A stretch of DNA of 5,036 nt from the NCBI GenBank assembly GCA_002167525.1, contig NHDV01000029.1, positions 1 to 5,036 on the forward strand, given 5' to 3'. The position numbers were made by a program, and so were the translations under genes. Source of the DNA: Flavobacteriaceae bacterium TMED68 (GTDB taxonomy: Bacteria; Bacteroidota; Bacteroidia; Flavobacteriales; Flavobacteriaceae). Numbering within the stretch: the first letter of the stretch is position 1; the number at the start of each line of letters is the position of its first letter. Below the pieces are notes generated by a model. It saw only the letters and a program-made list of their open reading frames with translations. It had not been told where the DNA came from and did not search any database. This document shows, piece by piece, positions 1 to 5,036 of this stretch.

Positions 1-91
1 ACGTTTTGAATAATTAATGTCATTATTAGGTAACCAAATACACTTTTTCATTCTTGATTTTAGCTTTTCTCGAATATTATTAATCGTCTCA
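1..91 (-). repeat. Left arm of a perfect 91-bp inverted repeat (copy of acyltransferase coding sequence)
   Basis: Bases 1-91 are the exact reverse complement of 1530-1620, with no mismatch. Identity breaks at base 92 against 1529 on the inner side. It reaches base 1 on the outer side, so the true length may be greater. Read on the minus strand, this arm encodes the acyltransferase peptide from ETINNIREKLK to NYSKR in the same frame as the upstream ligase. A copy of unrelated coding sequence placed right after the ligase A3 motif is best explained as a chimeric junction near base 91. Confidence 0.97.
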
Positions 92-672
92 TCAATAGCA
101 TAGTAAGAAAGCTTAACTCCTTTTGGATTACCAGTAGTACCAGAAGTAAAAATAATAGTCCACAAATCGGAAAGCTTTGGAATGTGTGGGTTTTTCATTG
201 GATTATGTTTCCCTAAAAAGTCGAACCATTCCTCTCCACGCTCAACAATAGAAAACCCTTTATAATTTGGAAATTTTATTACGGGTAATTCAACCGGTAT
301 ATCATCCTTAATATCCTGCCAAGTCTCAATTTTACCTACAAAAATTAAATCTATATCGCCAAAATCCAAAAGGAAATTTAATTCCTCACCTTTAAGGGAT
401 GGGAAAAAAGGAACAGATACATATCCTGCCATCATTATTGCCATATCTGCAATAATCCATTCACGACAATTTTTAGAAATTAGTCCAATATGTGCATTTT
501 CTCTTAATCCTAGTGATTTTAAACCAGTAGCTAATTTTCTTGCCATTTGTCCGACTTCACCCCACGTATAAATTTCCCAATTATCACCAAATGGCTGTCT
601 CAATAATGGGCGATCACGATGCTTTTTCTCCCATTCATAAAATTTAAAGTCAAAAAATTCAGGTGTAATCAT
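1..672 (-). CDS. Long-chain acyl-CoA ligase (AMP-forming), N-terminal part, chimeric at its 3' end
   Basis: This is an AMP-binding (ANL superfamily) enzyme that would activate a fatty acid with ATP to an acyl-adenylate and then to acyl-CoA. The frame opens at ATG 672-670, just after an in-frame stop at 681-679, and begins MITPEFFDFKFYEWEKKH. It is open for 224 codons to the window edge; family members are usually about 500-600 residues. Residues 176-186 read TSGTTGNPKGV, the phosphate-binding A3 signature. Residues 25-104 (YTWGEV, LGLRENAHIGLISKNCREWI, MMAGYVSVPFFPSL) match the usual N-terminal fold. Only residues 1 to about 194 are ligase: from E195 to R224 the protein is identical to residues 194-223 of the acyltransferase encoded at 952-1992, because bases 1-91 are an inverted copy of part of that gene. 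The rest of the ligase, including the later adenylation motifs and the C-terminal lid, is absent. The family call is firm, the exact substrate is not known, and the end given here is the window edge. Confidence 0.88.
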   Translation of the reverse strand, partial: MITPEFFDFKFYEWEKKHRDRPLLRQPFGDNWEIYTWGEVGQMARKLATGLKSLGLRENAHIGLISKNCREWIIADMAIMMAGYVSVPFFPSLKGEELNFLLDFGDIDLIFVGKIETWQDIKDDIPVELPVIKFPNYKGFSIVERGEEWFDFLGKHNPMKNPHIPKLSDLWTIIFTSGTTGNPKGVKLSYYAIDETINNIREKLKSRMKKCIWLPNNDINYSKR

Positions 673-951
673 AGATGTTTAGTTTTTTTATTATTAAATC
701 TGGGTCCGAGATGGGGTCTAAAAATTACCGATAGTACTCTTAAAAAGCATGGTAAAGTTTTAGTTGTGGCTTTTAAATTTATTAAATATTATTTATTTAA
801 GTTTAATAATTTAAAATTTCCAATATTTTAGTAAAAAAAAATTAGTTTTTATTGCAGAATTATTATTATTAATTTGTCACTCAAAACATTTACTAAAGAG
901 AAACAATAGTTGCTTAATAATGTCAAATAAAAGTTATCCTAGTCAGCTTTA
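673..951. other. Divergent AT-rich intergenic region between ligase and acyltransferase
   Basis: This 279-bp gap separates the divergent starts of the acyl-CoA ligase and the acyltransferase and must hold both promoters. It is very AT-rich, especially from about 771 to 870. Partial matches to the Bacteroidota -7 element TAnnTTTG occur (for example TTAATTTG at about 869-876 on the plus strand), but none has a well-spaced -33 partner, so no promoter is called. An 8-bp AT-only inverted repeat (779-786 with 802-809) is no better than expected in such sequence. No small gene is supported. Confidence 0.55.
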
Positions 952-1992
952 ATGAAAAATATTTTTTACTATTTCATAAAGTACACTATACAATTTGCAT
1001 CCAAATGTTACTTTAGAAAAGTTAAAATTATAGGGCTTGAAAATATCCCAAAAGAAGGGGGAATCCTGTTTTCGCCTAATCATCAAGGAGCATTTTTAGA
1101 TCCACTTTTAGTGGGTTCTATTGTTATTCAACAGGTAACTTCATTAACACGTAGTGATGTTTTCGGTGGAAAATTTCAATGGTTTTTGGACGCACTAAAA
1201 ATGCTGCCTGTTTATCGAATTCGTAATGGGTATTCAAACCTTAGGAGAAATGAGGAAATTTTTGATAAATGCAGAAAATTTCTGTGCTCTAAAGAATCAA
1301 TTATAATGTTTTCAGAGGCAGCACACCACAATGAGTTTTTTTTACAGTCTTTATCCAAAGGAAGTAGTCGTCTTGTTTATGAAGCTCAAGTAGAGAGTAA
1401 CTTTCCAATTTATTTAGTTCCTGTGGGAATAAACTATGGGCATCATACAAAACCTTTATGTGATCTTCATCTAGTTTTTGGAAAGCCTATTGAAGTAAGA
1501 AATTTTTTAGATGATTCTTTGTCTAAAGCTGAGACGATTAATAATATTCGAGAAAAGCTAAAATCAAGAATGAAAAAGTGTATTTGGTTACCTAATAATG
1601 ACATTAATTATTCAAAACGTAAAAAGTTAATAAATCGAATAAATACAGAAATGGATTTTGAAGATTTAAAAAAAGGTATAGGTCTTATGAACCTAAAGAC
1701 CGAAAAAAAATATAAAAATAAATTAGGATTCAAATTATTATTAGCAATTAGCTATGTTCCAAATCTTCCACCTCTTCTTATCATGAAAAAAATATTATCA
1801 CTTTTCGAAGATATTGTTTTTTACAGCTCAATCAAATTGACAGCAGGTTTAATTCTGTTTGGTGTTTGGTGGGTAATACTTTATGTCTTAATTGGAATTT
1901 ATTTTGACTGGATACTTGCCTTACCAGTAATATTTACATGTATTCTATTTTTATATATTAGGCAAAGTCTATTGTATATTAAATATGAATAG
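952..1992 (+). CDS. Membrane 1-acylglycerol-3-phosphate-type acyltransferase (PlsC/LPLAT superfamily, Gat1/Gat2-like)
   Basis: This 346-residue acyltransferase probably transfers an acyl group to a glycerol-phosphate or lysophospholipid acceptor at the inner membrane. The catalytic motif is NHQGAFLDP at residues 43-51, with His44 and Asp50. The spacing is H-x5-D rather than the H-x4-D of classical PlsC; H-x5-D is the form I know from fungal Gat1/Gat2-like and Bacteroidota relatives. MLPVYRIRNG (84-93) fits block II and YLVPVGINYG (154-163) fits block IV. Block III reads MFSEAAHH (119-126) in place of the usual FPEG, keeping the Glu. After the catalytic domain come a basic linker (about 195-260) and a C-terminal membrane part with segments near 295-316 and 319-336, and perhaps a third hydrophobic stretch at 261-278. 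ATG 952 is the first start after an in-frame TAG at 940-942, and no Shine-Dalgarno site is visible. The gene is divergent from an acyl-CoA ligase, a plausible source of its acyl donor. The acceptor is not known. Confidence 0.88.
   Translation: MKNIFYYFIKYTIQFASKCYFRKVKIIGLENIPKEGGILFSPNHQGAFLDPLLVGSIVIQQVTSLTRSDVFGGKFQWFLDALKMLPVYRIRNGYSNLRRNEEIFDKCRKFLCSKESIIMFSEAAHHNEFFLQSLSKGSSRLVYEAQVESNFPIYLVPVGINYGHHTKPLCDLHLVFGKPIEVRNFLDDSLSKAETINNIREKLKSRMKKCIWLPNNDINYSKRKKLINRINTEMDFEDLKKGIGLMNLKTEKKYKNKLGFKLLLAISYVPNLPPLLIMKKILSLFEDIVFYSSIKLTAGLILFGVWWVILYVLIGIYFDWILALPVIFTCILFLYIRQSLLYIKYE
1530..1620 (+). repeat. Right arm of the 91-bp inverted repeat, native copy inside the acyltransferase gene
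   Basis: This stretch is the exact reverse complement of 1-91. Here it lies within an uninterrupted 346-codon acyltransferase frame (residues 194-223), so this copy is judged the original. The two arms are separated by 1438 bp. Nothing at its borders suggests a mobile element: no target duplication, no terminal repeats and no recombinase gene nearby. Confidence 0.97.
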
Positions 1993-2153
1993 GTATTATC
2001 TATTATTATCCATTATTATTGAGAATAATTTTACTAATTTTTTTAATTATTAATTTAAATAGATAAATTCTATCAAAAATTATAATAGGATAGTAATTGG
2101 ATATAATTGACAATTTTAAAATTTATATCTAGCCCTAAAAATTGGATGAAGTA
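1993..2153. other. Convergent AT-rich intergenic region
   Basis: This 161-bp gap lies between the convergent stops of the acyltransferase and the DUF4270 gene, so transcription from both sides should end here. It consists of AT-rich runs with many ATTATT and AATTTT tracts. The best stem is 7 bp (GATATAA 2100-2106 with TTATATC 2123-2129), which has no GC-rich core and no clear T-tract, so no terminator is called. No gene is supported. Confidence 0.5.
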
Positions 2154-3980
2154 TTAATACTCCGTATAAAAAATCTCTAGTTGGATTTTTGATGAATCCA
2201 TTTCCTCCCCACCAGATCCATGTAAAACAACCCCAAGAGGGCTTAAAACTGAGGTAGAAGGATAATTGATAAACTCCTGGTCTGATGTTTGAGCTCTTTT
2301 ATATCCTATAGAATTTATTCCATTTGCAGGGGAAATAGCTATCGTATAATTGGTGGAATCTTTTCTTATAAGCCTATTAACGTGGTTTGTAATTCTAAAC
2401 TTGTATCTATAGGGTCTGCCAAGATCATCATACTCTAAAAAACCACCATAAATAAATTTATCTTTATTTTTTTGATTATTATTCACTGAATTGTCAAGGG
2501 TAAAATCAATTATAGGGGAACCATTTGAATAATTAAATAAATAAAGTCTTTTAATTATGTCCAAATCAGATGAAATGTAATGATCTTGATCAACGTATAA
2601 AAATAGGTTGGCCTCACTTACAAGCCATCTATTATTTCTTAAATCATCGAGTAACTCACCTTGAGAATTCAGCTTATCAAATAATTTGATGGTTGAAAAA
2701 TATCCATTCCCGTTTAAGTAGGATTTTTTAGAAGCAATATTGTTCTGACCTAGTTGAACTTCTTTATCAATTTCGCCACTCATATCTTGATGATTTAATG
2801 TGTTGAATCGAACACCGTTAAAATTGAGGGAAAAAACTTTTGAATTTATTTCAATAATATCATCGGATGTATTGTCTAAAGTGCCATTCGAATTATTAAA
2901 GTTGTAATCATATTCAATATTAATATTAGCGTTATTAATATCGAGAAGCATATATAAATCATCTGAAAAATTATCAGCTCTAATTACGATCCCTTTAAAA
3001 AACCGAGTAAAGTTTTCATAATTTGACAAGTGATCCTCCCCTTCATTATCTATAATTTTGGTTTGAAAAAAATCTATATCAAGTGGGACTCTAATTCTTG
3101 GTGATAGTCGCGTTTGAATTTTATTCCTCTCATCTACATCATTAGTTTCAGGATCATCTTCTTTGTAATTAAATCTTAACTCATCAAAATTTAAGCTGTA
3201 AAGCGTATCGCACAACTTTGCCCCTATAAATCCCTGTTCAAAAAAATCAGTATTCGAATAATATTGTTTGTTTCTCTCAAAATTCTGCAAAGGGTCTAAA
3301 GGAGAGAGAAAATAGGTGAGCTCATAAACTTTTAGATTAAAGGTTGCAGCTCTGTTGCCAAAAATTGAATCGATTTGATAAATGTTATTTTCGTATTCAA
3401 AACTTGAACTATCAGTATCTATCAAATCTAAAATACCATCATTGTCACTATCATCACTTAATGGGTTTAAATTTAATCGGCTCTCTTCAATATCTGACAA
3501 TCCATCACCGTCAGAATCACTCTCAGGATCCTTTGCATCGTTATCAAATAAATCAATAACCCCATCTTGATCAGCGTCATCTAGGTTGTTGAAGAATGGT
3601 ATGTCTAAATAAACAGATGTGACTTTTTCATTTTCATCAATTACAGCAGGGTTATCTTTGGCCACTTCTGCTTCCTGAGTATAATTCCCAAAAACAGGTC
3701 CCCCAGAATACCTAAGTTGAGAAGTTATACTGGCTTTGGAAACACCAAAACCAGGAATTTGAATTCTCCCTAGCTGACCAAGTGGTAATCCATCCGTTTG
3801 AAAATAATTAAGCTTCTTTTGGTAGGAATAAACAGGAGCATTAAAAGATCTCGTTTTAAGAGTTGTTTTAGTCAATAAATCAACTCCAACGGAATGATAA
3901 TCTTTATCACAGGATAAAAAAAAGCAGATTACAATGACTGAAATAGCCAAAATGGGTTTGATTAGGCTTAGAAAATTCAT
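2154..3980 (-). CDS. DUF4270-family lipoprotein with thrombospondin type 3-like calcium-binding repeats
   Basis: This 608-residue exported protein is of unknown function. Residues 1-23 form a hydrophobic signal peptide ending FLS before Cys24, a loose lipobox, so it is probably lipidated and anchored in the envelope. The opening SCDKDYHSVGVDLL is typical of DUF4270 proteins of Flavobacteriia. So are later blocks: NEKVTSVYLDIPFF (117-130), FNLKVYELTYFLSPLDP (214-230), FKGIVIRADNF (328-338), and the C-terminal YRYKFRITNHVNRLIRKDS (524-542) with LSPLGVVLHG (579-588). Between the second and third of these blocks, residues 135-190 carry three Asp-rich units, DADQDGVIDLFDND, DSDGDGLSDIEES and DDSDNDGILDLIDTD, which resemble thrombospondin type 3 calcium-binding repeats. 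The start at 3980 follows an A-rich leader without a Shine-Dalgarno site. It lies 9 bp after the stop of the GT5-like gene, so the two are probably co-transcribed. The family assignment is from recognition of the sequence; the role is not known. Confidence 0.85.
   Translation of the reverse strand: MNFLSLIKPILAISVIVICFFLSCDKDYHSVGVDLLTKTTLKTRSFNAPVYSYQKKLNYFQTDGLPLGQLGRIQIPGFGVSKASITSQLRYSGGPVFGNYTQEAEVAKDNPAVIDENEKVTSVYLDIPFFNNLDDADQDGVIDLFDNDAKDPESDSDGDGLSDIEESRLNLNPLSDDSDNDGILDLIDTDSSSFEYENNIYQIDSIFGNRAATFNLKVYELTYFLSPLDPLQNFERNKQYYSNTDFFEQGFIGAKLCDTLYSLNFDELRFNYKEDDPETNDVDERNKIQTRLSPRIRVPLDIDFFQTKIIDNEGEDHLSNYENFTRFFKGIVIRADNFSDDLYMLLDINNANINIEYDYNFNNSNGTLDNTSDDIIEINSKVFSLNFNGVRFNTLNHQDMSGEIDKEVQLGQNNIASKKSYLNGNGYFSTIKLFDKLNSQGELLDDLRNNRWLVSEANLFLYVDQDHYISSDLDIIKRLYLFNYSNGSPIIDFTLDNSVNNNQKNKDKFIYGGFLEYDDLGRPYRYKFRITNHVNRLIRKDSTNYTIAISPANGINSIGYKRAQTSDQEFINYPSTSVLSPLGVVLHGSGGEEMDSSKIQLEIFYTEY
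3411..3578 (-). other. Region encoding thrombospondin type 3-like Asp-rich repeats
   Basis: This is the part of the DUF4270 gene for residues 135-190. It holds three copies of a D-x-D-x-D-G-[ILV] type pattern, spaced about 20 residues apart, with the acidic positions expected to bind calcium. Its GAT-rich, low-complexity DNA explains open reading stretches on the opposite strand in the same place. Confidence 0.8.
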
Positions 3981-3989
3981 TGTTTATTT

Positions 3990-4793
3990 TTATATTATGT
4001 TGCTAGAATAAAAATTAACAAATGCATCTTCCTTTTGAGAATCTTCAAAACTCAACCCAGGAATTGAATAATCTAATAGGTCATCTTGTATGGATTTTGG
4101 GGTTTCACTGTCGGCAATAGCATATCCATCTGAATATTCAATACTCAACTTAATTAAATTCTCGAAGCTTGCATTTTTTAAATGACTTATTAATTCCAGT
4201 GGAATATTATCAAATGCAACTTTATCATGTAAATTCTTAGAAATTACTTTGTCAAAATCTTTTGCATAAACAGAAGTGACAATTTTACTATTTGCAAAAA
4301 TTGGTTCGTCTTTATAATATGTTTTTAAATAAAGTGGGAATAAACAAGTAAACCAGCCATGTAAATGTATAATATCAGGTGACCAATTGAGTTTTTTAAC
4401 AGTTTCAATGACTCCTTTTGTAAAGAAAATCATCCGTTCATCATTATCAGAAAAAAGTTTTTGATTATGATCTCTCAAAGAAGAGCGCCTTTTGAAATAT
4501 TCATCGTTATCAATAAAATATACTTGCATTCTTTCCTTTGGGATTGAAGCAACTTTTATTATTAAGGGCATGTCAACATCATTGATTACTAGATTCATTC
4601 CAGATAATCGGATTACCTCATGAAGTTGGTGACGTCTCTCATTTATCATACCATAGCGTGGCATAAATATTCTGGTCTGACCTCCGTGATCATTAATGTT
4701 TTTTGGGATTTTGAAAGAATTTACAGCTTGATTAGACTGGGGAAGGTAAGGAACTACTTCTGAAGAAATATTCAGCACTTTTTTGTCTTTCAT
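3990..4793 (-). CDS. GT5 'glycogen/starch synthase' N-terminal half protein, probably not a classical synthase
   Basis: This 267-residue protein matches only the N-terminal Rossmann half of GT5 glycogen synthases; full enzymes are about 470-500 residues with a second GT-B domain. Visible family features are SSEVVPY (10-16), GGQTRIFMPRYG (37-48), a VYFIDNDEYFKR stretch (91-102), DNDERMIFFTKGVIE (116-130) and PDIIHLHGWFTCLFPLYLK (139-157). The KxGGLgDV ADP-glucose-binding loop expected near residues 18-28 is missing; the sequence there is LPQSNQAVNSF. The usual HDWH motif reads HGWF (145-148). No ORF for the C-terminal domain follows: the next gene downstream, 9 bp after the stop, is the DUF4270 lipoprotein. 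From memory, short proteins of this kind are common in Flavobacteriia and annotated as glycogen/starch synthase, so this looks like a stable family form rather than a decayed gene. Glycogen synthesis activity is doubtful and the real role is unknown. The start ATG 4793-4791 gives the expected MKDKKVLNISSEV beginning. Confidence 0.82.
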   Translation of the reverse strand: MKDKKVLNISSEVVPYLPQSNQAVNSFKIPKNINDHGGQTRIFMPRYGMINERRHQLHEVIRLSGMNLVINDVDMPLIIKVASIPKERMQVYFIDNDEYFKRRSSLRDHNQKLFSDNDERMIFFTKGVIETVKKLNWSPDIIHLHGWFTCLFPLYLKTYYKDEPIFANSKIVTSVYAKDFDKVISKNLHDKVAFDNIPLELISHLKNASFENLIKLSIEYSDGYAIADSETPKSIQDDLLDYSIPGLSFEDSQKEDAFVNFYSSNII

Positions 4794-4893
4794 AAAATAT
4801 TTATTAATCCTAAGCTTAAAAGTTTTGCGAAATTACAAAAATTTAATGTAATAAGCTGAAATCTCTATATTTACAAGGTTTAAATATTTTTTA
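4794..4893. other. Divergent intergenic region between GT5-like gene and panC
   Basis: These 100 bp separate two divergent starts and should hold the promoters of both panC and the GT5-like/DUF4270 unit. No Shine-Dalgarno site, operator-like palindrome or riboswitch is evident. A minus-strand promoter could not be assigned with a correctly spaced pair of elements. Confidence 0.5.
4842..4873 (+). promoter_or_regulatory. Possible Bacteroidota-type promoter for panC
   Basis: TATATTTA at 4866-4873 differs in one place from the Bacteroidota -7 consensus TAnnTTTG. It is preceded at 20-bp spacing by TTTA (4842-4845), a weak -33 element. It would place a start of transcription roughly 10-15 bases before the panC ATG. 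AT-rich sequence gives such matches by chance, so this is tentative. Confidence 0.25.
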
Positions 4894-5036
4894 ATGGAAG
4901 TCTTTAATTCGCCCCAACAATTCTCAAGGCATTTTTTTGGGAAATCCTATTCAATTGGCATGGTTCCGACTATGGGAGCACTTCACGATGGGCACCTTTC
5001 ATTAATTGAAAAAGCATTAATTGAAAATGACAAAGT
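4894..5036 (+). CDS. panC: Pantothenate synthetase (pantoate--beta-alanine ligase), N-terminal part
   Basis: PanC joins pantoate and beta-alanine with ATP to give pantothenate, the precursor of coenzyme A, in the cytoplasm. Only the first 47 codons are in the window; the full protein is usually about 280 residues. Residues 22-37 read GMVPTMGALHDGHLSL, the hallmark of the family. It contains the HxGH nucleotide-binding signature (His31 and His34), equivalent to the HIGH motif of related nucleotidyltransferases, and the PTMG segment that contacts pantoate and ATP. ATG 4894 is the only start between the in-frame stop at 4852-4854 and the motif, and gives a normal short N-terminal lead. The gene is divergent from the GT5-like gene and runs off the right edge. 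Confidence 0.93.
   Translation, partial: MEVFNSPQQFSRHFFGKSYSIGMVPTMGALHDGHLSLIEKALIENDK

Follow-up and report, generated by a model that had tools for sequence, protein, structure and literature searches.

Invertible DNA segments, which turn by site-specific inversion, contain an inverted repeat that relates two nearby places. Inverted joints between nearby sequences are also described for multiple displacement amplification (MDA). According to passages of Lasken and Stockwell 2007 (PMC1855051), 406 of 475 MDA chimeras were inverted, 337 of those joining sequences within 10 kb, and at least two complementary bases were found at the joint in 93.5% of the inverted chimeras within 10 kb; the same passages attribute the chimeras to 3' ends that are displaced and then prime synthesis on strands close by. 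In human data, as given in passages of a second study (PMC4595205), the overlap had its peak at 6 nt, and the distances lay between 0 and more than 5,000 nt and peaked at 250-300 nt.

The DNA analysed here is a stretch of 5,036 nucleotides (the window), whose bases 1-91 are very probably the part beyond the switch in a chimera that arose by template switching in vitro. Its features are the following:

1-91, minus strand: putative switched segment, which repeats acyltransferase coding bases 1530-1620 exactly in inverted orientation and is 87-92% identical to the acyltransferase locus of four relatives (L001-L004) on the strand opposite to that of its flank
86-91, minus strand: the joint, TGAGAC, a 6-nt overlap common to both genes within which the switch cannot be placed more finely (6 nt at the native sites of L001, L002 and L003, 4 nt in L004)
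86-672, minus strand: 5' part of an AMP-binding (acyl-CoA ligase-like) gene, with native sequence as far as the joint (PF00501, 115.6 bits with 97-672 scanned; protein 94% identical in L001)
952-1992, plus strand: intact acyltransferase gene, an ORF of 346 amino acids (PF01553 Acyltransferase, 46.3 bits)
1530-1620, plus strand: native copy of the repeat within the acyltransferase gene, an exact match, collinear in L001-L004
2154-3980, minus strand: DUF4270 protein, BamH-like (PF14092; NCBIfam BamH model 393.2 bits, under the cut-off of 420)
3990-4793, minus strand: protein with a starch synthase catalytic domain (PF08323)
right end of the window, plus strand: start of panC

As in the inverted MDA chimeras of the cited passages (PMC1855051, PMC4595205), two nearby segments are joined in inverted orientation with the intervening stretch skipped, and a few nucleotides are shared at a joint of places less than 10 kb apart. 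Bases 1-91 match L001-L004 on the strand opposite to that of bases 78-5036; the native sites are separated by 1458-1464 nt in L001-L003 and by 1457 nt in L004 (about 1.4 kb), and the complementary run, 6 nt in three relatives and 4 nt in the other, falls within the 2-21 nt taken for such joints. In contrast to those studies, the joint is seen here in one sequence, whose amplification is presumed, and the distance between the sites is off the reported peak. The locus is also like invertible DNA segments in that an inverted repeat links two nearby places; it is unlike them in that the native sites share just 6 nt in L001-L003 and 4 nt in L004, short of what recombination would take, and in that a recombinase is missing among the five coding stretches scanned in the 5 kb (ligase, acyltransferase, DUF4270/BamH-like, starch-synthase-like and the panC start, three short overlapping ORFs being left out). 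An invertible segment was set aside because adequate sites and a recombinase among the scanned genes are both missing.

The repeat itself is as the original prediction described it. Bases 1-91 and the reverse complement of 1530-1620 agree at every position, identity ending at base 92; a repeat search stretches the pair to 98 nt at 97% and finds 35 inverted pairs in the window, none of the others as long as this one. Chance had been dismissed as its origin and can be dismissed here too: about 1.4e-42 91-mers of such kind are expected from base composition, exact inverted matches reached at most 19 nt in 20 mononucleotide shuffles of the window, and in the window deprived of bases 1-91 they reach 14 nt. 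One copy had likewise been taken for intact coding sequence, and 1530-1620 does lie inside the uninterrupted acyltransferase ORF.

Comparison with related genomes, which had been proposed as a check, identifies the side that is broken. The ligase part (window 97-672), used as query, gave 74 loci, the ten best being labelled Bacteroidetes or Flavobacteriaceae, with L001 as the closest. Bases 78-5036 of the window are collinear with L001-L004 at 84.5-90.6% nucleotide identity, while bases 1-91 match these loci apart from their flank, at 87-92%, within the acyltransferase gene of each. A fifth locus, L005, is collinear with the window in two pieces (72-79%), and a separate match of 1-91 is absent from it. 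Past GATGAGAC the ligase of L001-L005 shows A or C and then AAAAATAT, the native continuation, and is uninterrupted at the corresponding point; in the window GATTAATAATATTCG stands there, a sequence of the acyltransferase coding strand. The database protein P0121, 92% identical to the ligase part of the window, follows the native sequence for about 20 residues and then has an odd end of its own. Since L001-L005 and P0121 continue natively at the joint, the ligase is the broken side. In P0123, a related database ligase fragment, an unrelated C-terminal tail directly follows TSGTTG; this tail looks like translated sequencing adapter and is a further case of a spoiled end that was read as protein.

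In three of the four relatives tested, L001-L003, TGAGAC is exactly what the native ligase and acyltransferase sites have in common. Random pairs of points on opposite strands share at least 6 nt in 0.28-0.32% of cases (200,000 trials each in L001, L002 and L003). The native ligase continuation in the relatives and the 6-nt microhomology at the joint are additions to the original prediction, and together they make a physical template switch more likely than an assembler overlap; the preference expressed there for a fold-back or strand-switch chimera is thus strengthened by a ligase that continues natively in L001-L005 and by a microhomology whose kind and length match those in the cited passages on MDA chimeras. 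Copying of the minus strand would have proceeded through the ligase gene until the 3' end of the new strand was freed after TGAGAC. About 1.4 kb back, the freed end would then meet the complementary GTCTCA in a single strand of the acyltransferase gene and anneal to it; extended from there, the copy would carry on with the coding strand of the acyltransferase. A read or contig derived from the chimeric molecule would stop 91 nt into the switched segment, base 1 being presumably a contig end. The reaction was probably MDA with phi29 polymerase, because the form of the joint (inverted orientation, distance and overlap) fits it. The source genome most likely has one acyltransferase at the locus and, judging from its relatives, an uninterrupted ligase.

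The joint was also searched for elsewhere. With window 1-672 as query, the search covered 22 genomes from the genus group to which G001, the genome of L001, belongs. Of these, 17 matched, 15 over a long part of the ligase and two over a short stretch only, and none of the 17 had a match extending through the joint as far as base 1. Five of the ligase matches extend 14 bases beyond the joint, to base 78, and stop. Bases 1-91 match G001-G004 on the other strand, at their own place, and have no match in G005 and G006. None of 88 loci contains the 20-mer spanning the joint, and none of the 120 ligase-like proteins among the matches listed (120 of 241) has the acyltransferase tail. The ends of the 74 ligase loci, with single-cell genomes and MAGs counted together, were surveyed for an exact inverted copy of at least 20 nt that starts at most 30 nt from the end and has its partner inside the extracted locus. 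By this definition the left end of the window is positive and its right end negative, and no copy was found at 38 real contig ends or at 110 ends made by locus extraction. Such ends are therefore not common among the loci of the relatives, as 0 of 38 real contig ends carry one.

This scarcity counts against a template-switch chimera, as does the overlap of 4 nt instead of 6 in L004. Microhomology, moreover, occurs at real rearrangements too. A distance of about 1.4 kb falls inside the range given in the passages of PMC4595205 but off their peak of 250-300 nt. Another in vitro or assembly artefact, namely a chimera from library preparation or PCR, or a mis-join by the assembler, is unlikely: the extension of the repeat to base 1 would agree with it, since a k-mer or read limit could set a length of 91 nt, but an assembler presumably cannot join on an overlap as short as 6 nt, and the usual fragments of short-read libraries are shorter than about 1.4 kb. 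For this overlap length a de Bruijn overlap alone, which the original prediction had offered as an alternative, is improbable and was set aside, because both places share just 6 nt and a chimeric molecule or read is required; the length of 91 nt may still mark the point at which graph or coverage ended.

A microhomology-mediated inversion or fold-back that really exists in part of the flavobacterium population, fusing the N-terminal part of the ligase in frame to a later part of the acyltransferase, is distinctly unlikely. As a real inversion of about 1.4 kb between two TGAGAC sites, present in part of the population so that the window is a composite of both forms, the case is very improbable: the joint is shaped exactly like one edge of an inversion and the sites are inverted to each other, but the native sites share so few bases in L001-L003, a recombinase is absent among the scanned window genes (the three short overlapping ORFs aside), two genes kept in L001-L005 would be broken, and none of the 17 matching genomes contains the joint. 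Still less probable is that acyltransferase sequence really was folded back or duplicated in inverted orientation, interrupting the ligase in this strain; the exact identity would suit a recent duplication, but such an event would break a ligase that is uninterrupted at the same point in L001-L005, and the sequence stops inside the copy. A real inversion or duplication thus needs either a mixed population or a freshly broken gene, whole at this point in the relatives, that ends where the sequence ends, which is possible but unlikely. The original prediction had already placed a real inverted duplication, or the edge of an invertible segment, behind an artefact, and the short native sites, the missing recombinase among the scanned genes and the ligase of L001-L005, uninterrupted at this point, all uphold that order.

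With bases 1-91 read as the switched end of a chimera, the case matters as a caution only. On the minus strand the ligase has its start codon at 672. The frame is preserved across the joint, with GAG ACG read in both genes, and the AMP-binding ORF therefore runs from 672 down to 1, open-ended over 224 amino acids with bases 1-91 as its in-frame continuation. Hence gene prediction yields a plausible ligase-acyltransferase fusion of that length, which databases could take up as a genuine partial protein. For the trimming of sequence ends, a terminal inverted copy of a neighbouring gene, together with a few shared bases at the joint, is a simple mark.

Two further genes of the window showed features of their own. 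The DUF4270/BamH-like lipoprotein (2154-3980, minus strand) contains at residues about 133-190 an aspartate-rich stretch with three D.D.DG..D motifs, which falls outside the best-matching part of the NCBIfam BamH model. The motifs resemble calcium-binding thrombospondin type 3 repeats. They are present in 10 of 13 sequences inspected (the window, L001-L005 and L007-L010) and absent from L019, L023 and L028; in L002 they lie within an open stretch of just 322 amino acids, and the L002 frame may therefore be broken. Passages of the BamH structure paper (PMC12611786) report calcium ions in the partner BamM, and the word thrombospondin is absent from those passages. The protein encoded at 3990-4793 (minus strand), of 267 amino acids, has the N-terminal catalytic domain of starch/glycogen synthase (PF08323) alone, with no second Pfam domain at E 0.001, and its gene sits between the DUF4270 gene and panC.
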